Shown: in pieces, positions 16,841 through 33,652 of the stretch
How positions within the stretch are numbered: position 1 is the stretch's first letter
Layout of the letters: every line of letters begins with the position of its first letter
The notes under the pieces: generated by a model
What the model was told of the DNA's origin: nothing
Seen by the model: the letters and a program-made list of their open reading frames with translations, nothing else
The model's database searches: none
Position numbers and translations under genes: made by a program
NCBI RefSeq assembly: GCF_900109225.1
Contig: NZ_FNZK01000002.1
Span: 248,001 to 312,000 of the forward strand
Source: Propionispira arboris
GTDB taxonomy: Bacteria > Bacillota > Negativicutes > Selenomonadales > Selenomonadaceae
Length of the DNA stretch: 64,000 bases
Direction: 5' to 3'

Positions 16841-16856
16841 TGGCATGTGAGTTGCA
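16841..16856 (+). promoter_or_regulatory. Sigma-54 (-24/-12) promoter of the fatty-acid operon
   Basis: TGGCATGTGAGTTGCA matches the consensus TGGCAC-R-N4-TTGCW at every fixed position except one C to T. It lies about 90 bases before the acyl-CoA dehydrogenase start and directly follows the gene for a sigma-54 activator. Confidence 0.85.
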
Positions 16857-16945
16857 TTAACAAAAGATGACACGGAAACGCAATTCAATGTTCAAGGTTA
16901 TATAAAAACGTGTCGGTTATAAAAAATTATTGAGGAGGATTTATT

Positions 16946-18085
16946 ATGGATTTTCAACTTACAGAAGAACAAACGCTATTACAACAAAGTGCCAGAGAAT
17001 TTGCTGCTACATACTGTGAACCAATTGCAGCAGAAATAGATAAGACTGGCAGGTATCCGGCAGAAACAATTGAGCAATTGGCAAAACATGATTTTATGGG
17101 GATGCCTTATCCAGAAGAATATGGTGGAGCTGGTGCTGATTATCTGAGTTATACGCTTGCTGTAGAGGAAATTTCAAAAGTATGTGCTTCAACAGGAATT
17201 ATTTATTCTGCGCATTGCTCTTTAGGATTATGGCCAATTTATAAATGGGGATCGGAAGATTTGAAGAAAAAATATCTTGTTCCTTTATGTAAAGGCGAAA
17301 AATTAGGAGCTTTTGCATTAACTGAACCTGGTGCAGGGACGGATGCAGCATCCGGAACTTGTACGGCGATATTGATGAATAATGAATATGTCTTGAATGG
17401 GACGAAATGCTTTATTACAAATGGTGGATTGGCCGATGTCTATATCATTTTTGCTTTAACGGATCCATCGAAAGGCATAAAAGGGTTAAGTGCTTTTGTG
17501 GTAGAAAAGGGTCTGGTTGGTTTCGAAATTGGCAAACACGAAGATAAAATGGGGATTCGTGGTTCACAGACAACAGAATTGATTTTTAAAGACTGTCATG
17601 TAGCGAAAGAAAATCTTATTGGCGAAGAAGGCAAGGGTTTTAAATATGCCATGCAGACTTTGGATGGTGGTCGTGTTGGTGTTGCTGCACAAGCAATCGG
17701 CATTGCTCAGGGAGCGTTGGATGCGGCCGTTAAGTTTGCAAAGGAAAGAGTTCAGTTTGGTAAGCCGATTGCTACAAAACAGGCGATTCAGTGGATGCTG
17801 GCAGATATGGAAACACAGATACAAGCTGCTCGTTTGCTGGTATATAATGCTGCTGCAGCAAAAGACAGAGGGGAATCCTTTAGTAAAGAAGCGGCCATGG
17901 CGAAATTATTTGCTGCGGAAACAGCAGACTATGTTTGTACAAAAGCAATTCAGGTTCATGGCGGGTATGGATATATTAAAGATTTTAAAGTAGAACGTTG
18001 TTATCGTGATGCAAAAATTTGTTCATTGTATGAAGGTACGAGTGAAGTACAACGAATGGTTATTTCTGGAGCGTTATTACGCTAA
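16946..18085 (+). CDS. Short-chain acyl-CoA dehydrogenase
   Basis: FAD flavoenzyme that oxidises acyl-CoA to 2-enoyl-CoA (or the reverse) and exchanges electrons with ETF. It has the three-domain plan of the family: N-terminal helices (DFQLTEEQTLLQQSAREFA), the flavin motif FALTEPGAGTDA, the ITNGG strand, and the catalytic base Glu363 in SLYEGTSEVQR, the position used by butyryl-CoA dehydrogenases. Length 379 aa is typical. TGAGGAGGA lies before the ATG. It is the first gene behind the sigma-54 promoter; genes for ETF and crotonase follow, so a butyryl/crotonyl-CoA substrate is likely. Confidence 0.92.
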   Translation: MDFQLTEEQTLLQQSAREFAATYCEPIAAEIDKTGRYPAETIEQLAKHDFMGMPYPEEYGGAGADYLSYTLAVEEISKVCASTGIIYSAHCSLGLWPIYKWGSEDLKKKYLVPLCKGEKLGAFALTEPGAGTDAASGTCTAILMNNEYVLNGTKCFITNGGLADVYIIFALTDPSKGIKGLSAFVVEKGLVGFEIGKHEDKMGIRGSQTTELIFKDCHVAKENLIGEEGKGFKYAMQTLDGGRVGVAAQAIGIAQGALDAAVKFAKERVQFGKPIATKQAIQWMLADMETQIQAARLLVYNAAAAKDRGESFSKEAAMAKLFAAETADYVCTKAIQVHGGYGYIKDFKVERCYRDAKICSLYEGTSEVQRMVISGALLR

Positions 18086-18118
18086 TTTATAGCTGAAGAA
18101 AATAAGGATGTGATAAGA

Positions 18119-19678
18119 TTGAAAATTATTACGAAAGAAGCAGCGATACAACTGATAAAAGATGGTTCTTTTGTTGGTTTGGCTGGGTTTGTTGGATGCG
18201 CGCATCCTGAAACTTTAACGGCAGCCTGTGAAGAAAGTTTTTTAAAAAATGGGCACCCTAAAAATTTGACGATTCAATTTAGTGCTGGTATTGGTGATGG
18301 TAAAACAAAAGGATCAAATCATTTTGGAAATGCAGGAATGGTTAAGCGAATTATTGGTGGTCATTATGGTTTGGCACCGCGCCTGGGTGAATTGATTTCC
18401 AAAAATCAAACCGAAGCATATAACCTTCCACAGGGGATTGTCGCGCATCTTTGGCGTGCGGCGGCTGGCAATAAACCAGGTGTTCTGAGCAAGGTTGGTT
18501 TAAAGACTTTTATTGATCCTCGCTTAGAAGGCGGTAAGCTTAATGAAAAAACAACAGAAGACATTGTAAAACTGATGCCGATTGATGGGGAAGAGTATTT
18601 GTTTTATAAGGCGTATAAACCAGATGTGGCTTTAATTCGTGCAAGCACGGCGGATGAAAACGGAAATTTGACGATGGAACGCGAGTCTGTGATAACCGAA
18701 GCTTTTGCTATTGCTGGAGCAGCAAAGGCAAATGGTGGTATTGTCATTGTGGAAGTGGAACGAATTGCGGTAAAGGGAACTTTGAAACCGATGGATATAA
18801 AAATTCCAGGGGTACTGGTTGATTATGTAGTTATGGGAGATAAAGACAAATTCTTGCAAACAAATGGTGAATATTATAATCCTGCTTATACAGGCGAAGT
18901 GAAATTTCCGTTAGGAAATGTCGTTCCACTGCCGCTTACAGAACGCAAGGTCATTGCCCGCAGGGCAGCAATGGAATTAAAGCCTCATTGTAAGGCAAAT
19001 CTGGGTATCGGGATGCCGGAAGGTATCGCAACGGTAGCTGCTGAAGAAGGATTTGGTGATACGTTGACAATGACAGTTGAATCCGGTGGCTTTGGTGGAG
19101 TACCGGCTGCTGGGGCAAGCTTTGGCGCAACGGTAGATGCAGAAGCGATGATTTGTCAGACTGATATGTTTGATTTTTATGATGGAGGGAATTTGGATGT
19201 TACTTGTCTTGGCATTGCTCAGGTTGATAGCTTTGGCAATTTAAATGTCAGCAAGTTTGGACCGAAAATTCCCGGCTGTGGTGGATTTATTAATATTTCG
19301 CAAAATGCAAAAAAAATTGTTTTTTGTGGAACTTTAACGGCAGGCGGACTTAGGGAAACAATAAAGGATGGCAAGCTGGTTATTGAACAAGAAGGCAGAT
19401 CTAAAAAATTTGTTCAAAAGGTAGAGCAGATTACGTTTAGTGCAGAATATGCAAAATCGATTCACCAACCCGTGATCTTTATTACGGAAAGAGCTGTTTT
19501 TGAATTGCAGGATGAGGGACTTGTATTAACGGAGATTGCCCCGGGTATGGATTTGCAAAAAGATATATTAGGGCAGATTGATGCTAAGGTGAAAGTGGCG
19601 GCAAATCTTAAAGTTATGGATGAAAGAATTTTTAAAGAGAAAATCATGGGCCTGGCGGCTGATATGATAAATGCGTAG
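18119..19678 (+). CDS. Propionate-type CoA-transferase (acyl-CoA:acetate)
   Basis: Single-chain CoA-transferase of about 520 residues, both halves (alpha and beta type) fused, resembling the Megasphaera propionate CoA-transferase. N-terminal half: DGSFVGLAGFVGCAHPETL and the GGHYGLAPRLGELI segment; C-terminal half: IGMPEGIATVAAEEG and the catalytic Glu321 in TMTVESGGFGGVP, which forms the glutamyl-CoA thioester. It can activate short-chain acids with acetyl-CoA or propionyl-CoA. The TTG start at 18119 has AAGGA ten bases upstream; an in-frame GTG at 18110 is too close to it. It is 33 bases after the dehydrogenase. Confidence 0.9.
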   Translation: MKIITKEAAIQLIKDGSFVGLAGFVGCAHPETLTAACEESFLKNGHPKNLTIQFSAGIGDGKTKGSNHFGNAGMVKRIIGGHYGLAPRLGELISKNQTEAYNLPQGIVAHLWRAAAGNKPGVLSKVGLKTFIDPRLEGGKLNEKTTEDIVKLMPIDGEEYLFYKAYKPDVALIRASTADENGNLTMERESVITEAFAIAGAAKANGGIVIVEVERIAVKGTLKPMDIKIPGVLVDYVVMGDKDKFLQTNGEYYNPAYTGEVKFPLGNVVPLPLTERKVIARRAAMELKPHCKANLGIGMPEGIATVAAEEGFGDTLTMTVESGGFGGVPAAGASFGATVDAEAMICQTDMFDFYDGGNLDVTCLGIAQVDSFGNLNVSKFGPKIPGCGGFINISQNAKKIVFCGTLTAGGLRETIKDGKLVIEQEGRSKKFVQKVEQITFSAEYAKSIHQPVIFITERAVFELQDEGLVLTEIAPGMDLQKDILGQIDAKVKVAANLKVMDERIFKEKIMGLAADMINA

Positions 19679-19692
19679 AGGAGTGGATGGAA

Positions 19693-20481
19693 ATGAAAGA
19701 ATATAATAATGCAATCGTAGAGATAGAAAATGGAACAGCAGTCGTGACCCTGAACCGGCCGCAAGCTTTGAATGCTTTGAATGATGAGTTAATGTCAGAA
19801 ATTAATGACATTTTTACAGATTTAAATCAAGATAACAGTGTAAAGGTTATTATTCTTACTGGTGCTGGTGAAAAATCTTTTGTTGCTGGTGCAGATATTA
19901 AAGAAATGAAAGATTTAAATGCGGATGAAGGAAGACGCTGGGCGGAAAAAGGTGAAACGACTTTCTTAAAAATAGAACAGTGTGAAAAGCCAGTGATTGC
20001 AGCAATTAATGGTTTTGCCCTTGGCGGTGGCTGTGAAATTGCAATGGCTTGTGATATTCGAATTGCCGCAGAAAATGCAAAATTTGGGCAGCCTGAGGTT
20101 GGATTGGGTATTATCCCTGGCTTTGGTGGAACACAGCGCATGAGCCGTTTAGTTGGGCGTGGTATGGCGAAATATCTTATTTATACAGCCAATATGATTA
20201 AAGCAGATGAGGCGTATAGAATCGGTTTAGTACAAAAAGTAGTTCCTCTGGCAAGTTTATTAGAAGAAGCTAAAAGTTTAGCGCAGACAATTATAAAAAA
20301 GAGTCAGACGGCAGTTTGTTTTGCTAAAGATGCAATTAATCGTGGTGCAGAAATGTCTATGGCAAATGCTATGGCCTATGAAGCTTATATTTTTGGTATG
20401 TGTTTTGGCGGTGAGGATCAAACGGAAGGTATGAATGCTTTTGTTACTAAAGCAAAACCAAATTTTACAGGGAAATTTTAA
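19693..20481 (+). CDS. Enoyl-CoA hydratase (crotonase)
   Basis: Hydrates trans-2-enoyl-CoA to 3-hydroxyacyl-CoA. The crotonase fold is plain: VVTLNRPQALNALN, oxyanion-hole segment AGADIKEMKDL, GGGCEIAMACDIRIA with the first catalytic Glu, and QPEVGLGIIPGFGGTQR with the second. Length 263 aa is normal. AGGAG lies nine bases before the ATG at 19693; an ATG at 19687 is in frame but only three bases from that site. It follows the CoA-transferase by 14 bases and precedes the ETF genes. Confidence 0.92.
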   Translation: MKEYNNAIVEIENGTAVVTLNRPQALNALNDELMSEINDIFTDLNQDNSVKVIILTGAGEKSFVAGADIKEMKDLNADEGRRWAEKGETTFLKIEQCEKPVIAAINGFALGGGCEIAMACDIRIAAENAKFGQPEVGLGIIPGFGGTQRMSRLVGRGMAKYLIYTANMIKADEAYRIGLVQKVVPLASLLEEAKSLAQTIIKKSQTAVCFAKDAINRGAEMSMANAMAYEAYIFGMCFGGEDQTEGMNAFVTKAKPNFTGKF

Positions 20482-20561
20482 AAGAAACAGTGCTGTTGCA
20501 GCCATTGAAAACAGTATTTTCTGATAATTGTGGCCGAGCAAAGCCAGAGGAGTTGAATCAC

Positions 20562-21341
20562 ATGGATATAGTTGCCTGTTATAAATGGGTATTAGATGAA
20601 CAAGATATAAAAATTGTCCCGGGAAGTCTTTTATTGGATACGAGTCGGGCTAAAGGGAAAATCAGTGACTATGACAAAAATGTCATTGAAGAAGCTGTAC
20701 TTCAGGCAGAGAAAGATGATACTGTCACGGTAACAGCACTTACTTTTGGTAATGCGAAAGCGAAACAGTCCTTAAAGGATGCTTTATCGCGTGGTCCGGT
20801 AAAAGGATATTGGGTGAATGATGCAGCAGCCGATATTGCAGATGGATTTGTAACAGCAAATGTACTGACTGCAGCACTCAAAAAAATAGGGGCATATGAT
20901 TTAATTTTATTTGGTGAAGGATCTTCTGATGCATATGGTCAGCAGGTTGGCCCGCGTGTTGCCGCTTTATTGGGAATCCCGGTAGTTACGTTTGTAACGA
21001 AATTAGAAATTTCAGAGGGGAAGGTTATGGCTGCGCGGAAAATCGGTGATTGCACAGAAGATGTAACGGTGAATCTTCCGGCAGTTATTACCCTGTTGCC
21101 AGAAGTATGCAAACCTCGTATTCCAGGATTGAAGCAAGTTTTAGGTGCTTCAAAAAAACCTGTTCAAGAATTTAAATTAGCCGATTTAGATCTTGTTGCA
21201 GAGAATACACTCCCTAAAAATAAAATAAAATCAATTCAGGGATATGCTATGGATCGTAAAAATGAAATTTATACCGATGGTACGGTTGATGAAAAAGTAA
21301 ATACATTAATAGCAAGTCTTACAAAAGAAGGACTGTTATAG
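20562..21341 (+). CDS. etfB: Electron transfer flavoprotein beta subunit (FixA-type)
   Basis: Beta subunit of the ETF dimer that carries electrons between acyl-CoA dehydrogenase and a membrane or soluble acceptor. Features: DIVACYKWVLDEQDIKIVP at the start, the YDKNVIEEAVLQAEK segment, LFGEGSSDAYGQQVGPRVA and the C-terminal domain with RIPGLKQVLGASKKP. GAGGAG precedes the ATG at 20562; the frame is open further upstream without a ribosome site. The order etfB-etfA-fixC-fixX is that of the FixABCX complexes, which are known to bifurcate electrons between quinone and ferredoxin/flavodoxin. Confidence 0.92.
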   Translation: MDIVACYKWVLDEQDIKIVPGSLLLDTSRAKGKISDYDKNVIEEAVLQAEKDDTVTVTALTFGNAKAKQSLKDALSRGPVKGYWVNDAAADIADGFVTANVLTAALKKIGAYDLILFGEGSSDAYGQQVGPRVAALLGIPVVTFVTKLEISEGKVMAARKIGDCTEDVTVNLPAVITLLPEVCKPRIPGLKQVLGASKKPVQEFKLADLDLVAENTLPKNKIKSIQGYAMDRKNEIYTDGTVDEKVNTLIASLTKEGLL

Positions 21342-21352: not shown

Positions 21353-22288
21353 ATGAATGGGATTTTTGTATATTCAGAAGATATAGCCGTGACCAAGCAA
21401 TTGCTGAATATTGGGCGCAGCCTGGCTGATGTATTGCAGGTAAATGTAACGGCATTGGCTTTGAATGAAACGGAAACGGATACAGCGGGTTTGATCGCAT
21501 GCGGTGCAGAAAAAGTTATTGCATTGAGTGGCAGCAATCCATGGGTGGAAAGTTATGCCGAATCCATTGCCGAATGTATTGCAAAAGAAAATCCGTTGCT
21601 TGTACTGATTGGCGGTACAATGCGGGGTAAAGATGTTGCAGCAAGGATTGCTGCCTGGCATAGCCATGGTTTGGTAAATAGCGCCATGTCGATTGAGGTC
21701 GTTGAGCGTAAGCTGGAAACAAAACGAATGCTGTATGGCGGGTTGGCTGTTTGCAAGGAAGAACTCAGTGAAGGCTGTATCGTTACCATTGATCCACGGA
21801 CTTATGAGGAAGCCGCAGCAGATCCGCTGCGGAACGGTGATGTGGTTGCCTGTACAGCACAGTCCAATGATGCAGTGCTTGTTGGTGGTGTTTGCCCTAT
21901 TGTTCGAGAACGAGCAGATTTGGCAAATGCTGAAAAAATAATTTGTGTAGGCCGGGGGCTTAGTTCACAATCCGATATGAAACTAGTGGAAGACCTTGCA
22001 GAAAAAATTGGCGCAGAAATTGGCTGCTCACGGAGCATCGCCGAAGATTATCATTGGTTACCGACTGAATCTTATATTGGCCTTTCCGGGCAAAAGGTAA
22101 AGCCGCAATTGTATTTGTCTATCGGTATATCGGGGCAGGTACAGCATATTGTCGGTGCACGTGATGCAAGAGTTATTGTTGCAATTGATAAAAATGAAAA
22201 AGCACCAATTTTTTCTGCAGCTGATTATGGTATTGTCGGTGATTTATATGAAATTGTACCAAAGCTTATTGAAAAATTGGGGAAATAA
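21353..22288 (+). CDS. etfA: Electron transfer flavoprotein alpha subunit (FixB-type)
   Basis: Alpha subunit of ETF, 311 aa. The C-terminal FAD-binding domain is well conserved: VGRGLSSQSDMKLVEDLAEKIGAEIGCSR, then LPTESYIGLSGQKVKPQLYLSIGISGQVQH and the final AADYGIVGDLYEIVPKL. The N-terminal domain is of the FixB type, without a ferredoxin extension. GGGGGTGG lies before the ATG, 11 bases after etfB. It forms the heterodimer with the preceding subunit and donates to or accepts from FixC and the acyl-CoA dehydrogenase. Confidence 0.92.
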   Translation: MNGIFVYSEDIAVTKQLLNIGRSLADVLQVNVTALALNETETDTAGLIACGAEKVIALSGSNPWVESYAESIAECIAKENPLLVLIGGTMRGKDVAARIAAWHSHGLVNSAMSIEVVERKLETKRMLYGGLAVCKEELSEGCIVTIDPRTYEEAAADPLRNGDVVACTAQSNDAVLVGGVCPIVRERADLANAEKIICVGRGLSSQSDMKLVEDLAEKIGAEIGCSRSIAEDYHWLPTESYIGLSGQKVKPQLYLSIGISGQVQHIVGARDARVIVAIDKNEKAPIFSAADYGIVGDLYEIVPKLIEKLGK

Positions 22289-22313: not shown

Positions 22314-23597
22314 ATGGAAGATGAAAAATTTGATGTTATTATCGTTGGCGCCGGTCCGGCAGGGAGTGCCTGTGCATATATTCTGGCTCGTGAGGGCAAG
22401 TCGGTTTTAATGATTGAACGCGGTGATACAGCTGGTAGTAAAAATGTCACGGGTGGTCGTCTGTATACGTATGCTTTGGAATTAGTTGAATCTAATTTGT
22501 ATAAAGAGGCCATATTAGAACGTGCTGTTGTGCGAGAACAAATTATGATGCTCTCTGATAAAACGGGTCTTACAATTGATTATTTCGCCGGGACAAATAT
22601 GGAAGAACGTATGCCGCAGTCCTATACGATTTTACGGGCACCATTTGATGAATGGTTTGCTGGCAAGGCCGAAGAACAAGGAGCAATGATTGCGGCTGGT
22701 ATCTTGGTAGATGAACTGATCGAAAAAGATGGTAAAATTGTTGGCGTAAAAGCTGGTGGTGACGAAATGTATGCGGATCTTGTCATAGCAGCCGATGGTG
22801 TTAATTCGTCTATGGCAAGGCAGGCTGGGTTGAAGAAGGAATGGAATGGACATGAGGTCGGTATTGGGGTAAAAGAAGTCATCGAATTAGATCCGGAAAC
22901 AATACAACAGCGGTTTAATATTGGACCGGATGAAGGCGTTGCACGAGCCATTCTTGGTGGCACAGATTCTGTAATGGGCGGGGGCTGTTTGTATACAAAT
23001 AAGGATACTATTTCATTGGGGGTTGTCTTAAGTCCGGCATCTCTTGCGGCACAAAAGCGTTCTATTGCTGATATATATCAAGATTTTAAGATGCATCCTG
23101 CCATTTATCCATTGATAAAAGATGGAACGACCGTAGAATATAGCGCTCACCTTGTACCGGAAAACGGATGGAACAGTGTACCAAAAAAATTGTACCGTGA
23201 TGGTTTTTTAATGGTGGGGGATGCTGCTGGATTTGTCATAAATACCGGGACAATGATACGAGGTATTGATTTGGCTATTGTTAGCGGCGTAGCAGCAGCA
23301 CGTGCTGTTTTGAAAGCCGCTGCACCAGCTGATGTCGGGCAGCTTTATATGAAAGAATTAAATGAGCTGCAGCTCATTTCAACTATGCAGTTATTTGCTG
23401 GCTGGCCGCAAATTACGGGGCTGCCTCGTATGTCTTCTGTGTATCCGGATTTGGCCAACGAAATGATAGGGTCATTGTTTTATGTTGATGGTAAACTTCC
23501 CAAACGCATGGATAAATCAATGCTGCAGATTTTGAGAAAACATGTTGGCATTGGCCAGGTTTTGGCGGATGCATGGAAGGGGTTTAAGGCACTATGA
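22314..23597 (+). CDS. fixC: FixC-type flavoprotein (ETF-quinone oxidoreductase family)
   Basis: FAD-dependent oxidoreductase of 427 residues related to ETF:quinone oxidoreductase. N-terminal Rossmann motif IIVGAGPAGSACAYILAREGKSVLMIERG; TGGRLYT; AADGVNSSMARQAGL; and the second FAD contact FLMVGDAAGFV. The iron-sulphur part of the oxidoreductase is supplied separately by the next gene, which overlaps it by four bases (ATGA). With EtfBA and FixX it should connect the dehydrogenase to the quinone pool and, if bifurcating, to ferredoxin. Confidence 0.92.
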   Translation: MEDEKFDVIIVGAGPAGSACAYILAREGKSVLMIERGDTAGSKNVTGGRLYTYALELVESNLYKEAILERAVVREQIMMLSDKTGLTIDYFAGTNMEERMPQSYTILRAPFDEWFAGKAEEQGAMIAAGILVDELIEKDGKIVGVKAGGDEMYADLVIAADGVNSSMARQAGLKKEWNGHEVGIGVKEVIELDPETIQQRFNIGPDEGVARAILGGTDSVMGGGCLYTNKDTISLGVVLSPASLAAQKRSIADIYQDFKMHPAIYPLIKDGTTVEYSAHLVPENGWNSVPKKLYRDGFLMVGDAAGFVINTGTMIRGIDLAIVSGVAAARAVLKAAAPADVGQLYMKELNELQLISTMQLFAGWPQITGLPRMSSVYPDLANEMIGSLFYVDGKLPKRMDKSMLQILRKHVGIGQVLADAWKGFKAL

Positions 23598-23881
23598 CAG
23601 TACAAAAGCAAGGAACAGATGAACTATTAGGTTTGGATAAATTTACGGTAGATGAAGAAAATGCGCATATTGTGCTGGATAAAACGGCTTGTGCTGTTTG
23701 CAATGATAAACCTTGTCTGGTCGTTTGCCCAGCCGGGCTTTACAAATTAAATGACAAAGGTGAAATCCTTTTTGATTACGCGGGGTGTTTGGAATGTGGT
23801 ACTTGCAGAATCATGTGTCATCAACTTAAACAATGGAAATATCCAACCGGAACTTTTGGCGTATCATTTCGATTTGGTTGA
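23594..23881 (+). CDS. fixX: FixX ferredoxin-like protein
   Basis: A 95-residue ferredoxin-like partner of FixC. Cysteines: CAVCNDKPCLVVCP in the first half and CLECGTCRIMC in the second, enough for [4Fe-4S] binding. It begins inside the fixC stop (ATGA overlap), so stoichiometric synthesis is expected. Its C-terminal end (YPTGTFGVSFRFG) is the usual FixX tail. Confidence 0.92.
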   Translation: MTVQKQGTDELLGLDKFTVDEENAHIVLDKTACAVCNDKPCLVVCPAGLYKLNDKGEILFDYAGCLECGTCRIMCHQLKQWKYPTGTFGVSFRFG

Positions 23882-23910: not shown

Positions 23911-24627
23911 ATGAATAAAGTAATGGAACTAGATCAAGTAATGGGGAAAGTTCATGATGGCATGAGTATTATGTTTGGTGGATTCTGCGGTGTTGGGGCG
24001 CCACTCACTTGTATCCAAAAGATCGCTGAGTCAGGAGTTAAAGACTTAACGGTGATGGCAGTTGTTGCTACATATCCAGGGGGGCACTTTGACTTGGCTC
24101 CTCTTTTTGCAAATAAACAAATAAAAAAATTCATCTGTTCTCATGTGGGAACTTCGCCAGAAGCTGTACAAGCCTTAAAGACAGGTGATTTAGAAATTGA
24201 ATTTTTCCCACAAGGCAGTTGGATAGAAAAAGTACGAGCTGGTGGAGCTGGCTTAGGTGGTGTACTAGTTCGTACGGGCTTGCACACTATGGTAGAAGAA
24301 GGCAAAGAAAAAATTACAATTGATGGAATAGAATACTTGATAGAAAAACCACTTCATGCGGATATGGCTTTTATTAAAGGTTATCGTGCAGATAAATGGG
24401 GGAATGTTGAATATCGCTATACAGCTATCAATAGTAACCCGACGATTGCTACGGCTGCTGATTTTACTGTGGCGGAAGTTAACGAAATTGTTGAAGTCGG
24501 CGATATTGATCCACAAAGGGTGGGCACTCCGGCAGTTTTTGTTAAAGCAATCATACAAGGAAATACATTTAAAGAGCATAAGGCTGTTTACCACGATATA
24601 TGGGCGAGCACAGGCCAACTTAAATAA
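23911..24627 (+). CDS. atoD: 3-oxoacid/butyrate-acetoacetate CoA-transferase subunit A
   Basis: Alpha subunit of the two-subunit CoA-transferase family (AtoD/ScoA). Typical parts are DGMSIMFGGFCGVGAP near residue 16, FFPQGSWIEKVRAGGAGLGG with its Gly-rich CoA-binding loop, and ADMAFIKGYRADKWGNVEYR. Length 238 aa. AAGGAG lies about 12 bases upstream, slightly far. Together with the next gene it should exchange CoA between acetoacetyl- or butyryl-CoA and free acids. It is a second, unrelated-layout transferase besides the fused one at 18.1 kb. Confidence 0.9.
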   Translation: MNKVMELDQVMGKVHDGMSIMFGGFCGVGAPLTCIQKIAESGVKDLTVMAVVATYPGGHFDLAPLFANKQIKKFICSHVGTSPEAVQALKTGDLEIEFFPQGSWIEKVRAGGAGLGGVLVRTGLHTMVEEGKEKITIDGIEYLIEKPLHADMAFIKGYRADKWGNVEYRYTAINSNPTIATAADFTVAEVNEIVEVGDIDPQRVGTPAVFVKAIIQGNTFKEHKAVYHDIWASTGQLK

Positions 24628-24761
24628 TATGAGCTTGTTGTTAAAATAAGTAAAAATTTTTTTCTTTGTCATAGATGAAAGAATTGATTTATCTATTATT
24701 GCGTGTAGAAATGAAAAGATGTTATGTGAAAATAGAATTATATAAGGAGGTATCTTTTGAT

Positions 24762-25544: not shown

Positions 25545-25611
25545 ATGTTTTATTAATTTTTTTAGTTAAAGCATTCTGCTATAGATGGAAATAGAGGGAG
25601 ATGGATTTTGT

Positions 25612-27000
25612 ATGAGCAGTCATGATCTAAATCAATCAGGTAAAAAAAAGATAACAGACTATTTTACGGAATTTGCGGAGCGCTGGGTTCCGGATTCGTA
25701 TGTTATTGCTCTTGTTTTAAGTGTTGTAGCCTTTGGACTTGCGGCGATTTTTACACCAAATAATCCATATCAAATCGTACAGGCATGGGGAAAAGGGTTC
25801 TGGACACTACTAGAATTTTCGATGCAAATGTCGTTAATTGTTATTACGGGATATGCTTTGGCGACAACACCTCTTTGTAAAAATTTAATTGCTGGTGTTT
25901 GTAATAAGCCGAGCACAGCACCACAGTTTTATGTGTGGGCAGTTATTATTTCTTCCATTGGTTATTATCTTAATTGGGGGTTTGGCTTGGTTTTTGCAGC
26001 ACTCATTACAAAAGAATTAGCCAGGCAGGCAGCCAAGAAAGGGATTTTAGTTGATTATCGTTGTTTATGCGGTGCCAGCTGGACAGCATTTTATATTTGG
26101 CATATGGGACTTTCCGGGTCAGCACCGCTGTTGGTTGCTACTGCAAATCATTTTATGGTGAAAGAAATTGGCATTATTCCAATCACACAAACCATTTTTC
26201 ATCCATATACTTTAATTTTACTTGGTATTTCCGTGCTGGCAATTGTCATATTATTTTGGAAAGTGTTGCTACCAACCGACGCTGGCAAAATTAAAACGTT
26301 TGCGGATTTAAGGCCTGATTTGGCAATTGATGAAAAGGTTGAAGTCGTTCAAAATAAAAAAATAACCACACCAAGTGAATGGTTTACTTATACACCATGG
26401 TTTTCTTATATTATTGGTATCATGTTTTTAGTATATCTGTATTATCATTTTGTTGAACTGGGCAAATCGCTCGATATTAATGTGCTGAATTTTATCTTTT
26501 TGATGTTAATTATCTTTTTGTACAAAAAACCAGCTGATTTAATTAAAGCAATTAAGGCCTCTACATCGGCATCGTGGGGGGTTATTTTACAGTTCCCATT
26601 TTATGCTGGTATATTTGGCATTATGAAATATACTGGACTGGTGGATACTCTTTCACAATGGGTTATTAGTTTTAGTACAGAGTTCACTTTCCCCGCAATT
26701 GCAGCAGTACTGACGGCAGGAATCGGATATTTTATCCCGTCTGGTGGAAGCAAATGGGTTATAGAGGCACCATTTCTTATTCCGGCAGGTCAGGCATTAG
26801 GGGTTCCGGATGCAAAAACAATTATAGCATATATGTTTGGTGGAGATTTAGTGGCATTAATTCAACCATTTTTCGCAGTACCATTTATGGCCGTAGCGGG
26901 GCTTGAATTTAAAGATTTTGTTGGTTATTCATTTGCTGCATTTATTGTTTTGGGCATCATCATGGTTTTAGGGTTAACTTTTATCCCATTTGCACTATAA
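25612..27000 (+). CDS. atoE: Short-chain fatty acid transporter (AtoE family)
   Basis: Membrane permease with about ten to twelve hydrophobic spans. Family features: FAERWVPDSYVIALVLS near the start, GYALATTPLCKNLIAG, YLNWGFGLVFAALITKELAR, HMGLSGSAPLLVAT, and FIPSGGSKWVIEAPFLIPAGQ in the C-terminal half. Known or proposed substrates are short-chain fatty acids such as butyrate. The start at 25612 has GGGAG upstream; an ATG at 25585 is in frame. Its place between CoA-transferase and dehydrogenase genes supports import (or export) of the C4 acid used by the pathway. Confidence 0.9.
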   Translation: MSSHDLNQSGKKKITDYFTEFAERWVPDSYVIALVLSVVAFGLAAIFTPNNPYQIVQAWGKGFWTLLEFSMQMSLIVITGYALATTPLCKNLIAGVCNKPSTAPQFYVWAVIISSIGYYLNWGFGLVFAALITKELARQAAKKGILVDYRCLCGASWTAFYIWHMGLSGSAPLLVATANHFMVKEIGIIPITQTIFHPYTLILLGISVLAIVILFWKVLLPTDAGKIKTFADLRPDLAIDEKVEVVQNKKITTPSEWFTYTPWFSYIIGIMFLVYLYYHFVELGKSLDINVLNFIFLMLIIFLYKKPADLIKAIKASTSASWGVILQFPFYAGIFGIMKYTGLVDTLSQWVISFSTEFTFPAIAAVLTAGIGYFIPSGGSKWVIEAPFLIPAGQALGVPDAKTIIAYMFGGDLVALIQPFFAVPFMAVAGLEFKDFVGYSFAAFIVLGIIMVLGLTFIPFAL

Positions 27001-27034: not shown

Positions 27035-27988
27035 ATGAAAATGGAAGATATTAAAAATATTTGTAACTTAGGAACGGGAACCATGGGGTTTGGTACAGCG
27101 CTGCTATTTGCTAAAAAGGGTTATAATGTGCGGATGTTTGGACGCTCTGACGCGAGTGTTGAACGAGGCTTTCACAGTATAAAAGCTACATTGGAAACAT
27201 ATAAAGAAAATCAATTGGTAACAGAAAAAGAAATACCAGAAATTGTAGGCAGAATTAAAGGTTGTACAACTATCGAAGAAGCAGTGCAAAATGCGGATTT
27301 TGTTATAGAATCTATTGCTGAGGATTTGGCTATAAAAAGAGAAGTATGGAAAAAAGTTGAAAGTTTGAGTGGTCCTGATACTATTTTTGCAACAAATACT
27401 TCCGGTCTCAGTCCAACTGATATTGCTGAAGCATTGACAAGAAAAGATAAATTTGTTGTTGCTCATTTTTGGAATCCACCTCATCTGGTACCGCTGGTGG
27501 AAATTGTACCTGGGAAATATACTTCACAGGAAACGGTGGATGTGACCTGGAAATTAATTGAGAAAATTGGTAAGAAACCAGTAGCGTTAAAACGTGAAGC
27601 CCTTGGCTTTATTGGTAATCGTTTACAGCTCGCCTTACTGCGTGAAGCCTTATATATTGTTGAATCAGGGATTGCAACACAGGAAGCCGTTGATACGGCT
27701 GTAAAATATAGCATTGGTCGCCGCTTGTCAACAACGGGACCATTGGAAACAGCAGATCTGGGCGGGCTGGATATTTTTCATAATATAGCAGCTTATTTGT
27801 ACGCTGATTTATGCGATGTAAAAGAACCTTCTGAACTATTAAAGAAAGCAATGAAGGAAGGAAATCTTGGAGCAAAAACCGGTACGGGACTTTATGACTG
27901 GACGCCGGACGGGCTGCAAAAAATCAAGAAGACTCGAGAAAATATTTTAATTGAATGGTTACAAAAAGATAAAATCATGACGTTCTGA
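27035..27988 (+). CDS. 3-hydroxybutyryl-CoA dehydrogenase (HBD family)
   Basis: NAD(P)-dependent 3-hydroxyacyl-CoA dehydrogenase. Rossmann motif LGTGTMGFGTALLFAKKGY; SIAEDLAIKREVWKKV; FATNTSGLSPTDIA; and the catalytic stretch AHFWNPPHLVPLVEIVPG containing the His-Glu dyad. NRLQLALLREAL belongs to the C-terminal helical domain. The 317 residues are somewhat longer than the clostridial Hbd (about 282), because of an extended C-terminus. GGAAAGAGG precedes the ATG. It yields 3-oxobutyryl-CoA from the crotonase product. No thiolase gene lies nearby. Confidence 0.9.
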   Translation: MKMEDIKNICNLGTGTMGFGTALLFAKKGYNVRMFGRSDASVERGFHSIKATLETYKENQLVTEKEIPEIVGRIKGCTTIEEAVQNADFVIESIAEDLAIKREVWKKVESLSGPDTIFATNTSGLSPTDIAEALTRKDKFVVAHFWNPPHLVPLVEIVPGKYTSQETVDVTWKLIEKIGKKPVALKREALGFIGNRLQLALLREALYIVESGIATQEAVDTAVKYSIGRRLSTTGPLETADLGGLDIFHNIAAYLYADLCDVKEPSELLKKAMKEGNLGAKTGTGLYDWTPDGLQKIKKTRENILIEWLQKDKIMTF

Positions 27989-28016: not shown

Positions 28017-28067
28017 AAAGACAGTATGTCATATCCTTGGTAGTTGAGGGGTGATGTACTGTCTTTT
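28017..28067 (+). terminator. Intrinsic terminator after the hydroxyacyl-CoA dehydrogenase gene
   Basis: AAAGACAGTATGTCAT pairs with GTGATGTACTGTCTTT (three G-T pairs) and is followed by T. It marks the end of the fatty-acid operon before the hydrogenase genes. Confidence 0.72.
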
Positions 28068-28128: not shown

Positions 28129-28626
28129 ATGTCAGAAAATATACTGGAAAGAGTATTAACAAGAGAATTAGCACGGCAAATTGATGGAATTTTAAGTAAC
28201 TATCAATATGATGCATCGTGTTTGATCGGAATTTTATTGGATATACAGCAAATTATACCTAAACATTATATTCCAGAAGAAATAGCTTATTATTTAGCAC
28301 AAAAACTTAATGTAAAAATTACCAATATTTACGATTGTATCACTTTTTATAGCTCAATCTATAGTAAAGCCAGAGCAGAGTATCCCTTGCAAATTTGTAA
28401 TAGCATTGTTTGCAAAGTGAAAAAAGGGGAACGATTAGCGATGAATCTGAAAAAAATTTTGAAGGTAGAAATCGATCAAGCAACTGCAGATGGTAAATTT
28501 ATTATTGAAATGGTACCTTGTTTTGGTGCCTGTGATGTGGCTCCAGCAGTCAAGGTAAATGGGAAAATATATGGTAATTTAAATAATGAAGAAAAAATCA
28601 AAGCAATGCTTCAAAAACTTGTGTAA
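28129..28626 (+). CDS. NuoE-like [2Fe-2S] subunit of trimeric [FeFe]-hydrogenase
   Basis: About 165-residue thioredoxin-like [2Fe-2S] protein of the NuoE/HydC family. The four cluster cysteines are Cys-x4-Cys in ICNSIVC and Cys-x3-Cys in VPCFGACDVAP. The N-terminal helical part includes YIPEEIAYYLAQKLNVKITNIY, typical of the family. I chose the ATG at 28129 (GAGGGGG upstream); the open frame further left lacks a ribosome site. With the next two genes it forms a NAD(H)-linked hydrogenase, passing electrons between the NuoF-like flavin and the H-cluster subunit. Confidence 0.9.
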   Translation: MSENILERVLTRELARQIDGILSNYQYDASCLIGILLDIQQIIPKHYIPEEIAYYLAQKLNVKITNIYDCITFYSSIYSKARAEYPLQICNSIVCKVKKGERLAMNLKKILKVEIDQATADGKFIIEMVPCFGACDVAPAVKVNGKIYGNLNNEEKIKAMLQKLV

Positions 28627-28639
28627 AGGAGATAAAACG

Positions 28640-29911
28640 ATGACGATGGCAGTTAAGTTTATGACGAAAAATTTTGGCCGTTATGATATCCGTTCGCTTG
28701 CTTCTTATATGGAAATTGGTGGATTAACAGCCTTAAAAAAAGCGATTCAGATGCCAGGCGCTGATATAGCAGCATTGCTTACCGCAGCAGGCATTAAAGG
28801 ACGGGGTGGAGCCGCGTATCCAATGGGAAAAAAATGGCTGCAGGCAAGAGCTGTAAAAGCGGCAGAAAAAGTGATCATTTGTAATGCCGATGAAGGGGAA
28901 CCTTGTACATTTAAAGATAGAACTCTTATTCAAAATGATCCTTTCAATTTGTTGGAAGGTATGATTATTGCTGGATATGTCATTGAGGCACAACATGGTT
29001 ATATTTATTTGCGTGAAGAATACAGCTATTTGAAATCTATCTTGTTAAACGCAATCAAGCAGCTTACGGAAAAAAACTTTTTGGGAAAGAATATTCTTGG
29101 TAAAAAAGGCTTTGATTATGAATTACATCTTTGCAGTGGTGCCGGGGCATATGTATGTGGTGAAGGGACGGCGCTGATTGAATCTATAGAAGGTAAAAGC
29201 GGCAGGCCTAGAATGAAACCACCTTATATAAAACAGTGTGGTTTATATAATCATCCGACATGTGTACAAAATGTTGAGAGTTTATCACTTGTTGCAGCTA
29301 TTGTGAATGATGAAAATAACATATATCAGACGTATGGAACGAAAGGAGAAAAAAATTCCATTGGAACGAAACTGATTAGTGTTGCCGGGAATGTAAAGCA
29401 GCCAGGCGTTTTCGAAATTCCTTTTGGAATAACAATAAGAGATATTATTTATGGACTTGCCGGGGGGCTGGAAGGTCAGCCAATCAGTCTTATCCAATTT
29501 GGCGGAGCATCTGGTAAAGTTGCTAGTAAAGATATACTCGATACACCATATTCTTATGAACATTTGATAAAAGCTGGTGTGGGTGTGGGTTCAGGGGCTA
29601 TCTTGGTTGTCGATGAAAGTACAAGTGTAATTGATTTTTTAATTACAACACAGGCGTTTTTCAGTCATGAAAGCTGTGGACAGTGCGCTCCCTGCCGTGA
29701 AGGCAATCGACATATTCGGTTATTGCTGCAAAAGATTAAAGATGGAGTACATACGCAGGCAGATATTGAAAAACTTAATTCAATTGCAGATATTATGACA
29801 GTATCTTCTTTGTGTGGACTGGGACAGGCATCGCAAAATGCTCTTAAAACAGCTATGAAAGTATTTCCTGATGCATTTAAAATCATGGAACGAGGTGTGA
29901 AAATTGGCTAA
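28640..29911 (+). CDS. NuoF-like NADH-binding subunit of the hydrogenase
   Basis: FMN and [4Fe-4S] subunit that oxidises or reduces NAD(H). NADH site GIKGRGGAAYPMGKKW; FMN site VIICNADEGEPCTFKDR; SGAGAYVCGEGTALIESIEG; cluster N3 ligands ESCGQCAPCREG plus a fourth Cys in SLCGLGQ. Length is 423 aa, as in NuoF of complex I. HydB of electron-bifurcating hydrogenases usually has extra N- and C-terminal iron-sulphur domains; these are absent here. AAAGGAG precedes the ATG; the gene overlaps the H-cluster subunit by eight bases. Confidence 0.92.
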   Translation: MTMAVKFMTKNFGRYDIRSLASYMEIGGLTALKKAIQMPGADIAALLTAAGIKGRGGAAYPMGKKWLQARAVKAAEKVIICNADEGEPCTFKDRTLIQNDPFNLLEGMIIAGYVIEAQHGYIYLREEYSYLKSILLNAIKQLTEKNFLGKNILGKKGFDYELHLCSGAGAYVCGEGTALIESIEGKSGRPRMKPPYIKQCGLYNHPTCVQNVESLSLVAAIVNDENNIYQTYGTKGEKNSIGTKLISVAGNVKQPGVFEIPFGITIRDIIYGLAGGLEGQPISLIQFGGASGKVASKDILDTPYSYEHLIKAGVGVGSGAILVVDESTSVIDFLITTQAFFSHESCGQCAPCREGNRHIRLLLQKIKDGVHTQADIEKLNSIADIMTVSSLCGLGQASQNALKTAMKVFPDAFKIMERGVKIG

Positions 29912-31652
29912 AATCAATGTGAAAATTAATGGAGTTCTGATTGAAGTTGAATCAGGCACCCGAATTATTGAGGCGGCAAAACGTTTAAATATAGAAATTC
30001 CTCATCTATGCTATCATCCGGACCAAAGAATCAAAGCATTATGTCGTATTTGTTCAGTGGAAGTTGTTGGCAGTAAAAAAATGTCAGCGGCCTGTTCAAC
30101 TTATGTATGGGATGGGATGGAAATTCTAACGAACACCAAGAAAGTGTATGATACACAAAAAGGTATTCTGGAAATGATTTTGGCCAATCATAAACAGGAC
30201 TGTTTGTCTTGTTCAAGAAATGGAAATTGTGAGCTTCAGAATCTTTGTAGGAGGTTTGGAATTCAAAGGCAGACGCTGGATAAAACGATAAATCCTGTTT
30301 ATTTAGATGATAATCCCTGTATTGAACGTAATATGGATAAATGTGTAAAGTGTGGCCGCTGTGATAAGATTTGTCGCGACGTGCAGGGGGTGAGTGCTAT
30401 AACCTGGGCCGGACGATCTGAAACATTTATGTTTACAACAGCCTATAACAAGTCCTTGATGGATACGGATTGTGTGCTTTGCGGTCAATGTACGACGGTA
30501 TGTCCTGTCGGTGCTATTGTAGAAAAAGATAATACGCAAACAGTTCGGGAAGCCATACAAGATTCGGGGAAACATGTTATTGTTCAAGTAGCACCTGCTG
30601 TTAGAGTGGCTCTTGGTGATATTTTCGGGTTGGAGAAAGGAACTGTTGTAACTGGCAAAATGGTGACCGCCTTGAAACAGCTTGGTTTTGATAAAGTGTT
30701 TGATACCGTATTTGCTGCCGATGTGACTATTATGGAAGAAGGAAATGAGCTATTGGATAGAATTCGTAATAATGGAATATTGCCAATGATTACTTCTTGC
30801 AGTCCAGGCTGGGTAAATTATATGGAAAAACATTATAGTGATCAGATTGATCATTTGTCTACAGCTAAATCCCCACAGCAAATTTTTGGTGCAATCGCAA
30901 AATCTTATTACGCTGACAAAAACAATATGAATAAAAAGAACATAGTAACGGTATCTGTTATGCCTTGCGTTACAAAAAAATTTGAGGCGGCGAGACCCGA
31001 GATGGCAACCGATGGAGTAAGAGACGTGGATATTGTTATTACGACGCGGGAACTTGCAAAAATGATTCAGTATGCTGGAATAGATTTTGTCGCTTTAGCA
31101 GAGTCTGAATTTGATAGTCCGTTGGGAGAAGGAACTGGTGCGGGTGTTATTTTTGGGACAACGGGGGGAGTCACGGAAGCTGCTGTCAGGACCGTATATG
31201 AAGTGGTAATGGAAGATGAACTTGAAAAACTCGAATTTAAAGATGCAAGAGGTTTGCAAGGAATTAAAGAGGCTGAAGTTGATTTAAAGGGTAGAAAATT
31301 GAAAATCGCAGTAGCACATGGACTTGCTAATGCCCAAAAAATTATGGAACAAATCAAAGCGGGAACAAGTCCCTACACGTTTATTGAAATTATGGCTTGT
31401 CCAGGCGGGTGTATAGGTGGAGGTGGCCAACCGCTTAACACAACAATTGACGGCAAGAAAATGCGTATGGATGCAATTTATGAAATTGATTGTAGTAAGA
31501 AGATTAGAAAATCGCATGAAAACCCAGAAGTGCAAAAACTATATCAAGAGTTTTTGGGGAAACCGCTTAGTGAGAAAGCACATGAATTATTGCATACACA
31601 TTACCATAAGATGAATAGACGTTATGATTTTTCTTATTTAGGTGAATCATAA
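29904..31652 (+). CDS. hydA: [FeFe]-hydrogenase catalytic subunit
   Basis: H2-forming subunit of 582 residues. N-terminal [2Fe-2S] ferredoxin domain (residues 1-80), His/Cys-ligated cluster HKQDCLSCSRNGNC, two [4Fe-4S] sites CVKCGRCDKIC and CVLCGQCTTVC, then the H domain with all three signatures: TSCSPGWVNYMEKHY, MPCVTKKFEAARPE and MACPGGCIGGGGQP. A TTG start overlaps the NuoF-like stop, with GAGGTG upstream. Maturases HydEFG are not in the window. It should reoxidise NADH, with or without ferredoxin, by making H2. Confidence 0.94.
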   Translation: MAKINVKINGVLIEVESGTRIIEAAKRLNIEIPHLCYHPDQRIKALCRICSVEVVGSKKMSAACSTYVWDGMEILTNTKKVYDTQKGILEMILANHKQDCLSCSRNGNCELQNLCRRFGIQRQTLDKTINPVYLDDNPCIERNMDKCVKCGRCDKICRDVQGVSAITWAGRSETFMFTTAYNKSLMDTDCVLCGQCTTVCPVGAIVEKDNTQTVREAIQDSGKHVIVQVAPAVRVALGDIFGLEKGTVVTGKMVTALKQLGFDKVFDTVFAADVTIMEEGNELLDRIRNNGILPMITSCSPGWVNYMEKHYSDQIDHLSTAKSPQQIFGAIAKSYYADKNNMNKKNIVTVSVMPCVTKKFEAARPEMATDGVRDVDIVITTRELAKMIQYAGIDFVALAESEFDSPLGEGTGAGVIFGTTGGVTEAAVRTVYEVVMEDELEKLEFKDARGLQGIKEAEVDLKGRKLKIAVAHGLANAQKIMEQIKAGTSPYTFIEIMACPGGCIGGGGQPLNTTIDGKKMRMDAIYEIDCSKKIRKSHENPEVQKLYQEFLGKPLSEKAHELLHTHYHKMNRRYDFSYLGES

Positions 31653-31684
31653 AAATTTAAAATAAGGAGGTCGCTGGAATTTAT

Positions 31685-33652
31685 ATGAGAAGTATTCAAT
31701 CTATTTTTGTTATATTAATGATTGCAATTTTAGTGGTTACGGCTGGTACCTTAACAACGATTCACTATATCAAAACGGAAATTGTTTTGGTTGATGGCAT
31801 AGAACAACATTTAACGGATACGACCAGAGAAGCAGCGGGAAATGTTGATTCTTGGCTGCAATTGCGTATGTCGGAATTGGAGGGCTTGGCGAATTCTCCA
31901 GTCTTACGTAGTGGTGATGAAAAGGCAATTAATACATATTTGCTGCAGGAAAATAAAAGACTGCCAATTTATAGTGCTTTTTGGGTATCTGATCCGGATG
32001 GAAATTGGTATTCGCCAGTTGGCTCATCGGGAAGTATTCAAGAAAGAGCTTATTATAAACAGGTTTTAACAACGAAAAAAACCGTAATTTCTGAGCCTTT
32101 GATTGGAAAAGCAGATGGGAAAATGGCAGTTGTTGTTGCTGTTCCGGTGGTCAAAGATGGGCAGTTAGTAGCGATTTTGGGCGGTAATGTAAAAATGGAT
32201 GAATTGATGCAATTGATTTCTTCTATTAAGATTGGGCAGTCGGGGTTTGCTACATTGTATCAATTTGATGGTACTGTCTTAGTGGATCGAGATTCGAAAA
32301 AAAATTTGCAGTATAATCCATTACAGGAGGCAGACAGCCCCTTGTCTGGAGTTGTAAAAAAACTACAAAATGCACAATCGGGTATTGAGGAGATTGTGGA
32401 AAATGGAGAGGCTGAATATGTGTCTTATGCCCCGTTGAAGAATGTAAACTGGGCAATTACAGCAACAGCTTTCGTCCATGAATTTAAGAATCCGCTGATT
32501 ACCATTCGCTTATGGTCCATTATTTCTGCTATTATTCTTGTTGTTTTAGCAGCATTGGCGGTATTGTTCTTTACAAGACGTCTTATCAAGCCTTTAAAAC
32601 AGTTGCAGGTGGCGGCTGAAAAATTGTCGAATGGTGATTGTACAACGGTTATAGATATACAAGAGAAAAATGAAATTGGCAAATTGGCAGAGTCGTTTAA
32701 AATAATGATGCAGAATATTCAAGGTTTGGTTGGACATATCAAACAATCCGCCTTACAAGTAGCTTCATCATCTGAACAGTTAACTTCTAGTGTAGGACAA
32801 TCGGCTGAGGCAGCTAACCAAGTTACTCTTGTTATTGCAGAGGTTGCTAAAGGAGCAGACATACAGGTCAAGGCTGTGGATACAGCAACTCTTATTGTAG
32901 AAAAAATGTCTGGAAATATTCAACAGGCAATTGATGGTGCAGCTAGTGTAGTTCATGTTACCAGCAAAACATCTCAGGCTGCCGAAACGGGGAATAAAGC
33001 GCTGCAATCTGCCTCAGATCAGATGAAAAATATTGAAATTGCAATTGAAAAAGTAGCTGAAGTTGTTGGAAAATTGGGTGAACGTTCCAAGGAGATTGGA
33101 CAAATAGTGAGTGCTATTTCAGGAATTGCCGGGCAAACTAATTTATTGGCACTTAACGCTGCGATTGAGGCTGCTCGAGCTGGTGATCAGGGACGTGGTT
33201 TTGCGGTGGTGGCAGAAGAAGTGCGCAAACTAGCCGAACAATCGGAGGGGTCGGCCAAAAAAATTGCGACTCTTATTGGTGAAATTCAGTCTGATACAGA
33301 ATGTGCGGTCATTTCTATGGATGCGGGAACTCATGAAGTAATCTGTGGTACAGAAGTTGTCACTTCAGCTGGCTTGACCTTTAAAGAGATTGCTGAATTG
33401 GTTAAACAAGCAGAGTCCGAAGCTCACGGTATTTCAGCTGTAATTGGGCAGGTGTCGGTTGACAGTAAAAATTTGGTTTCTGATATTGAGTCAATAAATC
33501 ATATTAGCGGAGAAACATCAGGACAAACGCAGACTGTTTTAGCATCAACGGAAGAACAATCTGCTGGTATGCAAGAAATTGCATCATCTAGTCAGGCTTT
33601 AGATCAGATGGCTGAGGAATTACAGCATGCGGTTAGTAAGTTTAAAATCTGA
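31685..33652 (+). CDS. Methyl-accepting chemotaxis protein with Cache sensor domain
   Basis: Membrane chemoreceptor, 655 aa. TM1 at about residues 8-28, extracytoplasmic dCache-type domain (about 35-270; [18 protein letters not shown] and [21 protein letters not shown] are typical), TM2 near 280-300, HAMP ([20 protein letters not shown]), and a cytoplasmic signalling hairpin with the conserved tip [23 protein letters not shown]. No C-terminal pentapeptide for CheR. AAGGAGG lies about 14 bases from the ATG, farther than usual. The gap to hydA is only 32 bases without a terminator, so the receptor is probably cotranscribed with the hydrogenase. Confidence 0.92.

Follow-up and report, generated by a model that had tools for sequence, protein, structure and literature searches.

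Gene content of the locus

The stretch analysed here (the window) comprises 64,000 nucleotides of Propionispira arboris DNA, positions 248,001 to 312,000 of contig NZ_FNZK01000002.1, from an assembly of 4.26 Mb that is 97% complete (family Selenomonadaceae, class Negativicutes; the sister species is P. raffinosivorans). It carries a block of genes on one strand, running from a sigma-54 activator through an acyl-CoA operon with FixABCX-type electron transfer genes to an [FeFe]-hydrogenase and a chemoreceptor, for which a role in the redox metabolism of C4 acids is proposed below. All the genes named in an earlier description based on the letters alone (the sequence-only reading) were found, where it had placed them. 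The parts are known and their combination is what stands out. In the open-licence literature no published description of this island was found, nor, by title and abstract, any paper on the hydrogenase or the C4-acid physiology of Propionispira. The features of the block are as follows.

14553..16604 (+): sigma-54 activator with CBS (two stretches), PAS, AAA+ (Sigma54_activat) and Fis-type helix-turn-helix domains
16666..16714 (+): terminator-like inverted repeat AAAGTGTCGG...CCGACACTTT with a T run after the activator gene, read from the sequence
16841-16856 (+): match to the -24/-12 promoter pattern, TGGCATGTGAGTTGCA, ahead of acd
16946..18085 (+): short-chain acyl-CoA dehydrogenase / enoyl-CoA reductase (acd)
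18110..19678 (+): single-chain CoA-transferase of the YdiF/FadX type (best PDB match E. coli YdiF, 2ahu, 466.6 bits)
19687..20481 (+): short-chain enoyl-CoA hydratase (crotonase, crt; PRK05809, 386.6 bits against a cut-off of 394)
20490..21341 (+): electron transfer flavoprotein (ETF) subunit EtfB, FixA-type
21353..22288 (+): EtfA, FixB-type
22314..23597 (+): FixC-type ETF:quinone oxidoreductase flavoprotein (best PDB match Thermotoga maritima EtfABCX, 7koe, 213 bits)
23594..23881 (+): FixX-type ferredoxin-like protein
23911..24627 (+): 3-oxoacid/acetate CoA-transferase subunit A
24675..25421 (+): 3-oxoacid CoA-transferase subunit B
25585..27000 (+): AtoE-type short-chain fatty acid transporter (PF02667, 376.5 bits; TIGR00366, 368.2 against 575.75)
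27035..27988 (+): dehydrogenase of the 3-hydroxyacyl-CoA dehydrogenase (3HCDH) family, separate subfamily ('hbd'), with an NPPH loop and a GRS cofactor loop
28016..28067 (+): terminator-like hairpin 3' of hbd
28129..28626 (+): HydC (NuoE-like)
28586..29911 (+): HydB (NuoF-like)
29904..31652 (+): HydA, NADH-dependent [FeFe]-hydrogenase of group A6
31685..33652 (+): dCache chemoreceptor (mcp)
33687..33721: terminator-like inverted repeat of 16 pairs at the end of the block, listed on the - strand

The block itself, from activator to receptor, has no thiolase gene, and the window gave 0 matches when scanned for Rfam families and tRNAs. In P. raffinosivorans the two-chain CoA-transferase pair (23911-25421) is absent between fixX and atoE (L013:13381-13560), so that within Propionispira the operon has either gained or lost this pair; the gene order of the block otherwise matches, at 94-100% protein identity. 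The two CoA-transferases of the sequence-only reading are thus both present in the window, and the two-chain pair is not genus-wide.

The sigma-54 promoter and the probable end of the C4 operon

With up to 2 mismatches allowed, the window holds 40 matches to the -24/-12 pattern against 35.8 expected, and the match ahead of acd was therefore rejected as proof of sigma-54 control when taken alone. What makes the site convincing is its recurrence ahead of acd in all 5 genomes compared, with 9-10 of the 11 specified bases and a start about 90-160 bp before acd. These were the window's own genome, P. raffinosivorans (nearly identical to the window), Pectinatus brassicae, Sporomusa acidovorans and the genome G141. 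The activator, whose nearest NCBIfam model is PrdR (520.9 bits, below the cut-off of 795), has orthologues that likewise precede this operon in S. acidovorans (78% identity), G141 (61%) and Pectinatus (51%). With an activator gene and a conserved -24/-12 promoter before its first gene the operon has the make-up of a sigma-54-dependent one, and the comparison supports a transcript that would start at this site under sigma-54 control. In this respect the sequence-only reading, which had proposed a sigma-54-controlled FixABCX-type acyl-CoA operon with C4-type partners, is borne out.

The hexamer TGTCGG occurs in 4 copies in the 341-bp gap between the activator gene and acd, compared with 23 in the other 63.7 kb, and it also makes up the arms of the terminator-like repeat behind the activator gene, an inverted repeat (16666..16714) which is not among the entries of the terminator scan list. 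Ahead of acd it is enriched in 4 of the 5 genomes, by Poisson estimates of 6e-5 to 8e-9 for a motif that was picked after seeing the gap; the exception is Pectinatus, where the gap shows no enrichment and TGTCGA is present twice. Over the whole window the hexamer is commoner than in shuffles (27 vs 13.4). Its copies are candidate sites of the activator.

At the other end, the start of hydC was re-assigned to the ATG at 28129 (after GAGGGGG), which is the most likely one, instead of the GTG at 28051, and about 140 bp therefore lie between hbd and hydC. The hairpin found there has a U-rich end and a z value of -3.25, 1 of 200 shuffles being as stable. Its 5' arm is also present behind hbd in P. 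raffinosivorans and S. acidovorans, and in the latter the 5' arm and a matching 3' arm follow hbd with the receptor gene directly next. From the position of the hairpin behind hbd, both here and in S. acidovorans with its directly adjoining receptor gene, hbd is probably the last gene of the C4 operon, and hydABC-mcp would lie beyond the terminator. A search for sigma-54 sites ahead of hydC gave no good one, the best match having 7 of 11 bases. With this hairpin and no promoter of that kind, the single regulatory unit assumed by the sequence-only reading is not supported.

The acyl-CoA and FixABCX core

The genes of the CoA-transferase, acyl-CoA dehydrogenase, EtfB, EtfA, FixC and FixX are contiguous, with the crotonase gene in between. 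The corresponding E. coli gene orders are ydiF-ydiO-ydiQRST and fixABCX-cai. The YdiF-type CoA-transferase and the Fix-type EtfB, EtfA, FixC and FixX are common to these and to the block, which differs from them by its crotonase, atoE, separate 3HCDH, CBS-PAS sigma-54 control, receptor and hydrogenase. The scores stay below the curated cut-offs (PRK12342 189.8/338, PRK11916 227.5/528, PRK10157 for FixC 388.5/610, PRK15449 for FixX 100.4/166), and the four proteins are relatives, not equivalogs, of the E. coli-type Fix/Ydi models; we take PRK12342, PRK11916 and PRK10015 to be YdiQ, YdiR and YdiS. The ydiO-ydiQRST products are called parts of an anaerobic acyl-CoA dehydrogenase complex in a passage of PMC10318755. 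Electron bifurcation of the FixABCX type, in which NADH oxidation is coupled to ferredoxin and quinone, would be predicted here from homology to the T. maritima EtfABCX. As to quinones in the relatives, a passage of PMC9430772 reports that S. ovata holds ubiquinone.

The acd product is the sole PF00441 match found in the genome. Its best NCBIfam model is AcrC, an acryloyl-CoA reductase (547.5 bits, cut-off 640 not reached), and the E. coli model PRK12341 fits it less well (260 vs 547 bits). The best PDB match of EtfB is CarD of the Acetobacterium caffeyl-CoA reductase (6fah). The car system consists of a CoA-transferase, an enoyl-CoA reductase and Etf, and serves H2-driven respiration; the window block differs from it in having FixCX, C4-type partners and a hydrogenase of the non-bifurcating type. 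The AcrC and CarD likenesses speak for another enoate as substrate, acrylate/3-hydroxypropionate or a branched or aromatic acid, which the operon would serve to respire much as E. coli cai-fix or Acetobacterium car does. Pectinatus fits this as well, having activator-acd-CoA-transferase-crt-etfBA-fixCX with no atoE, hbd or hydABC within the 20 kb read. However, the core is joined to atoE and the 3HCDH in Propionispira and S. acidovorans, which points to C4 acids. In other Sporomusa the surroundings of the hbd orthologue, with genes for a thiolase, a canonical Hbd and AtoSC-like proteins, point the same way. A substrate of another kind is thus considered unlikely.

The core is patchy in its occurrence, acd being found at E 1e-100 or better in 4 of the 61 family genomes searched. 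A FixC alignment scan of the genome contigs gave 16 loci, all of which were mapped. At 5 of the 16 (L032, L034, L035, L036, L039) a CoA-transferase, two dehydrogenases and etfBA-fixCX lie behind a regulator nearest to the second sigma-54 activator of the window (described in the last section); L037, L038 and L040 have the same enzymes, with no regulator detected. The FixABCX operons of L032 and L034-L040, with two tandem acyl-CoA dehydrogenases, belong to Sporomusa malonica, Anaerospora, Pelosinus, other metagenome-assembled genomes of Bacillota and two of Acidobacteria.

The 3HCDH-family dehydrogenase

The hbd product is the sole strong 3HCDH match in the genome. With the model of 3-hydroxybutyryl-CoA dehydrogenase, PRK05808, it scores 218.4 bits, which does not reach the cut-off of 408, compared with 447.1 for the canonical enzyme of the Sporomusa genome G299. 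Overall it is nearly equally close to the non-CoA dehydrogenase 4om8 and to the solved 3-hydroxybutyryl-CoA dehydrogenases (187 and 189 bits). The NPPH motif is common to all 30 hbd orthologues and is present in 4om8 too. The cofactor loop has GR in 28 of the 30 orthologues (GRS in the window copy) and Asp in 6 of 6 other 3HCDHs of the same stretches. In Rossmann folds GR in place of Asp in this loop points to NADP(H). The loop suggests an NADP-preferring enzyme, and the substrate may possibly be a free hydroxy acid and not a CoA ester. The full set of C4 beta-oxidation steps up to acetoacetyl-CoA, as claimed in the sequence-only reading, is not supported by this score and loop, which put both the CoA substrate and the use of NAD in doubt.

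An hbd orthologue at E 1e-80 or better was present in 30 of 380 Negativicutes genomes, at 31 places, the own genome included. The places read were 29 outside the genus and the one of P. raffinosivorans; 3 of these 30 stretches (L101, L104, L105), where the gene caller did not keep the hbd frame, were left out, and the counts are out of 27 with the window excluded. The neighbour of hbd is atoE at 17 of the 27, hydC at 3 (P. raffinosivorans, G299, G301) and a receptor gene at 2 (S. acidovorans, G303). Of the stretches, 4 include the FixC-crotonase core, 4 a second 3HCDH with a thiolase and 3 an NfnAB-like pair. This pair, identified by reading the sequences, lies near atoE-hbd in L082, L083 and L086 and would suit a 3HCDH that works with NADP. 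Ahead of atoE-hbd, several Sporomusa and their relatives carry genes for a histidine kinase and for a sigma-54 regulator whose receiver domain was recognised by eye, an arrangement like that of AtoSC. The block resembles E. coli atoSC-atoDAEB in AtoE and the two-chain CoA-transferase, and differs from it by the lack of the AtoB thiolase and by its CBS-PAS activator.

The hydrogenase

HydA scores 878.1 bits with the curated group A6 model NF040763, above the cut-off of 765. HydB has no Pfam domain besides FMN, SLBB and NADH_4Fe-4S, the extra domains of bifurcating HydB being missing. A part of Losey 2020 (PMC7311640) describes the non-bifurcating beta subunit by T/S and K/S/A at the NADH site, Tyr near FMN, no GGPSG and no extra Fe-S domain. 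The window HydB has T, K, Y and GGASG, the non-bifurcating pattern, whereas 7 bifurcating-type control loci scored alike have A, M, F and GGPSG; the F/Y position is our own assignment (aligned to T. maritima 312, where the paper prints 367), and several HydB rows could be scored at only some of the positions. HydABC is thus predicted to be an NADH-linked [FeFe]-hydrogenase of the non-bifurcating type, with H2/NADH activity independent of ferredoxin, and the NADH linkage given by the sequence-only reading is supported at the level of models and residues. As far as parts of PMC5626996 and PMC7311640 describe it, Syntrophomonas wolfei Hyd1ABC, a non-bifurcating NADH-dependent [FeFe]-hydrogenase, is alike in its three subunits, the A6 model and the non-bifurcating beta residues; the window copy differs in adjoining a C4/FixABCX operon and a receptor, in a host that has no canonical thiolase.

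A second A6 HydABC of the non-bifurcating type lies elsewhere in the genome (L045, on contig C10), with HydA 64% identical. In the HydA tree the island copies fall among Selenomonadaceae and three nearby families, and the C4-linked Sporomusa copies inside a Sporomusa clade. The clade tests took 27 of the 49 tree rows and the groups were chosen after the tree had been seen, so their p values are not blind. A recent copying of the island hydrogenase from C10 was rejected (island, P. raffinosivorans and C10 as one clade, approximately unbiased test, p-AU 0.008). One linked ancestor of the C4-linked hydrogenases of Propionispira and Sporomusa G299 was rejected as well (p-AU 2.6e-42; 7.4e-36 with the second G299 copy). 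Because the island and G299 hydrogenases are rejected as one clade, the linkage of a hydrogenase to the C4 module would have arisen at least twice. The connection of C4 genes, hydrogenase and receptor seen by the sequence-only reading is therefore a real one, recurring in Sporomusa with a different hydrogenase lineage.

The module in relatives and its receptor

S. acidovorans (G296) has activator-acd-CoA-transferase-crt-etfBA-fixCX-atoE-hbd-receptor, with acd and hbd 90% identical and no hydrogenase there. G141 has the same gene set, but with atoE-hbd in front of the activator. Sporomusa G303 has kinase-regulator-atoE-hbd-receptor-acd-etfBA-crt, likewise with no hydrogenase there, and elsewhere thiolase-Hbd-crt-acd-hydCBA with a receptor of another kind (sensor 25%). 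In Sporomusa G299 and G301 hydC, together with hydB, lies directly behind hbd, near a contig end. The G299 assembly has a further contig that opens within hydB and goes on with hydA-receptor (63%, full length)-acd-etfBA-crt. A second contig pair of G299 is also broken in hydB, and the two hydB genes break at about the same inner stretch (L084, L143, L177, L183), as expected if a shared repeat had collapsed in assembly.

Over its sensor part (residues 1-275) the receptor shares 59-62% identity with those of G303 and G299 and 46% with that of S. acidovorans, each of which is module-linked; no other receptor found in the loci fetched exceeds 28%. That the receptor lies there by chance was judged unlikely, the sensor being conserved only in module-linked receptors. 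Judged by its sensor, the receptor is a stable partner of the module, with or without a hydrogenase.

These data bear on the view that the hydrogenase and the receptor are unrelated neighbours of the C4 operon, hydABC being under separate regulation and serving general fermentation, as the C10 copy may. It can draw on the hairpin and the missing sigma-54 site before hydC, on the second A6 HydABC of the genome, and on the 46 of 49 examined hydrogenase stretches that are without C4 genes. Set against it are the separate recruitment of another hydrogenase lineage beside hbd in Sporomusa, the conservation of the receptor sensor with the module whether or not a hydrogenase is there, the position of hydABC between hbd and its receptor, and the tree test, by which the island copy is not simply a C10 duplicate. 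We hold this view to be decidedly unlikely.

Thiolases and the direction of the pathway

No canonical thiolase was found in the 4 of 4 genomes that have the activator, acd core, atoE and hbd (the window genome, P. raffinosivorans, S. acidovorans and G141). In the window genome there is one divergent thiolase (146-148 bits), with one of the same strength in P. raffinosivorans and in G141 (146-151 across the three); in S. acidovorans the thiolase search gave 0 matches at E 1e-10. Sporomusa G299 and G303 have 4 and 3 thiolases, respectively, of 301-367 bits. Thus oxidation to acetate would be without an evident last step. The divergent thiolase of the window genome passes the subfamily cut-off (TIGR01930, 335.3 bits against 240.55) and meets no listed equivalog cut-off; it adjoins a gene read as BioY and an acyl-CoA ligase.

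The sequence-only reading had likened the block to syntrophic butyrate oxidisers. On such a view butyrate would go to 2 acetate, and HydABC would dispose of the NADH by making H2, in the manner of Syntrophomonas wolfei. The hydrogenase is of the same kind by its A6 score and beta-subunit residues, CoA-transferases, acyl-CoA dehydrogenase, crotonase and 3HCDH are all together, and a thiolase, even if divergent, exists; a passage of Losey 2017 (PMC5626996) ties such a hydrogenase to electrons from 3-hydroxybutyryl-CoA. However, the canonical thiolase is absent throughout the full-set genomes, and the 3HCDH, with its GRS loop, falls below the 3-hydroxybutyryl-CoA dehydrogenase cut-off. The likeness to syntrophs is therefore not sustained and butyrate oxidation of this type is decidedly unlikely. 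Because of the thiolase pattern, the low PRK05808 score and the GR and NPPH loops, a redox role that preserves the chain is more likely than beta-oxidation to acetate. We agree with the sequence-only reading that direction, oxidation or crotonate reduction, cannot be told from the sequence.

Proposed role of the module

The reading which we prefer, at a little under even odds (about 0.47), is that the block is a sigma-54-switched module, passed between Negativicutes lineages, which takes up C4 acids and moves electrons onto or between them, leaving the chain uncut. AtoE would import acetoacetate, 3-hydroxybutyrate or crotonate, and the YdiF-type CoA-transferase would charge the acid by exchange with butyryl-CoA or acetyl-CoA. 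Crotonase would interconvert hydroxybutyryl-CoA and crotonyl-CoA. With electrons from EtfBA-FixCX the acyl-CoA dehydrogenase would reduce crotonyl-CoA to butyryl-CoA, from which the CoA-transferase would free butyrate. The 3HCDH would interconvert the 3-hydroxy and 3-oxo levels. HydABC, a downstream addition, would exchange NADH with H2, H2 serving either as donor or as outlet for surplus NADH, and the receptor would steer the cells to the acid. As to substrate and direction, we infer reduction or dismutation of C4 acids to butyrate, H2 being exchanged through NADH, as the favoured course.

Several observations weigh against this. If the 3HCDH is NADP-dependent, it would not feed the NADH-linked hydrogenase directly, and H2 would therefore serve the FixABCX branch. 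The hairpin, and the want of a good sigma-54 site before hydC, put co-expression of acd with hydABC in question. The hbd-hydCBA-receptor order of G299 spans a contig gap, where the adjacency of the contigs is presumed from the order in G303. The linkage to the hydrogenase is not general, C4 genes lying near only 3 of the 49 examined stretches, which were hand-picked from longer lists and non-random (a HydA match was present in 153 of 380 genomes). Two further genomes do have thiolases, one of 280 bits in G145, where CoA-transferase-crt-etfBA-fixCX and atoE-hbd are present and the stretch showed no acd, and one of 209 bits in Pectinatus, where the core alone is present. Finally, the divergent thiolase could cleave acetoacetyl-CoA, considering its subfamily score and active-site motifs that by eye seem present.

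A wider version, which we put forward as tentative, is that the module would move horizontally between Negativicutes lineages as a unit of chemotaxis plus respiration. C4 acids would be acceptors, or be dismutated via FixABCX, with the chain never cleaved, and the outlet for NAD(P)H beside AtoE-3HCDH would be exchangeable, two hydrogenase lineages or an NfnAB-like transhydrogenase having been plugged in independently. If true, this would assign a definite task to the Sporomusa FixABCX, the role of which was described in 2021 as unaddressed. Both here and in S. acidovorans the FixABCX genes share a sigma-54 operon with an acd, a CoA-transferase, a transporter and a receptor of their own, which makes the role testable in cultured strains. 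That hydrogenases of the non-bifurcating type have repeatedly come to lie next to this 3HCDH suggests H2-linked C4-acid metabolism outside the classical syntrophs.

Neighbouring genes

Downstream of the block, at 33822-36117, a YheO-type PAS/HTH (helix-turn-helix) regulator lies opposite two genes, one RidA-like and the other threonine-synthase-like. The region 36310-43390 holds a second sigma-54 activator, which is PrpR/PrdR-like, with a -24/-12 match, TGGCATTGTTATTGCT, at 38309-38324 (1 mismatch) that precedes a dehydrogenase, an amidohydrolase, an aldo-keto reductase and a transporter, as named by eye; the region is perhaps a separate sigma-54 unit for a sugar or sugar acid.

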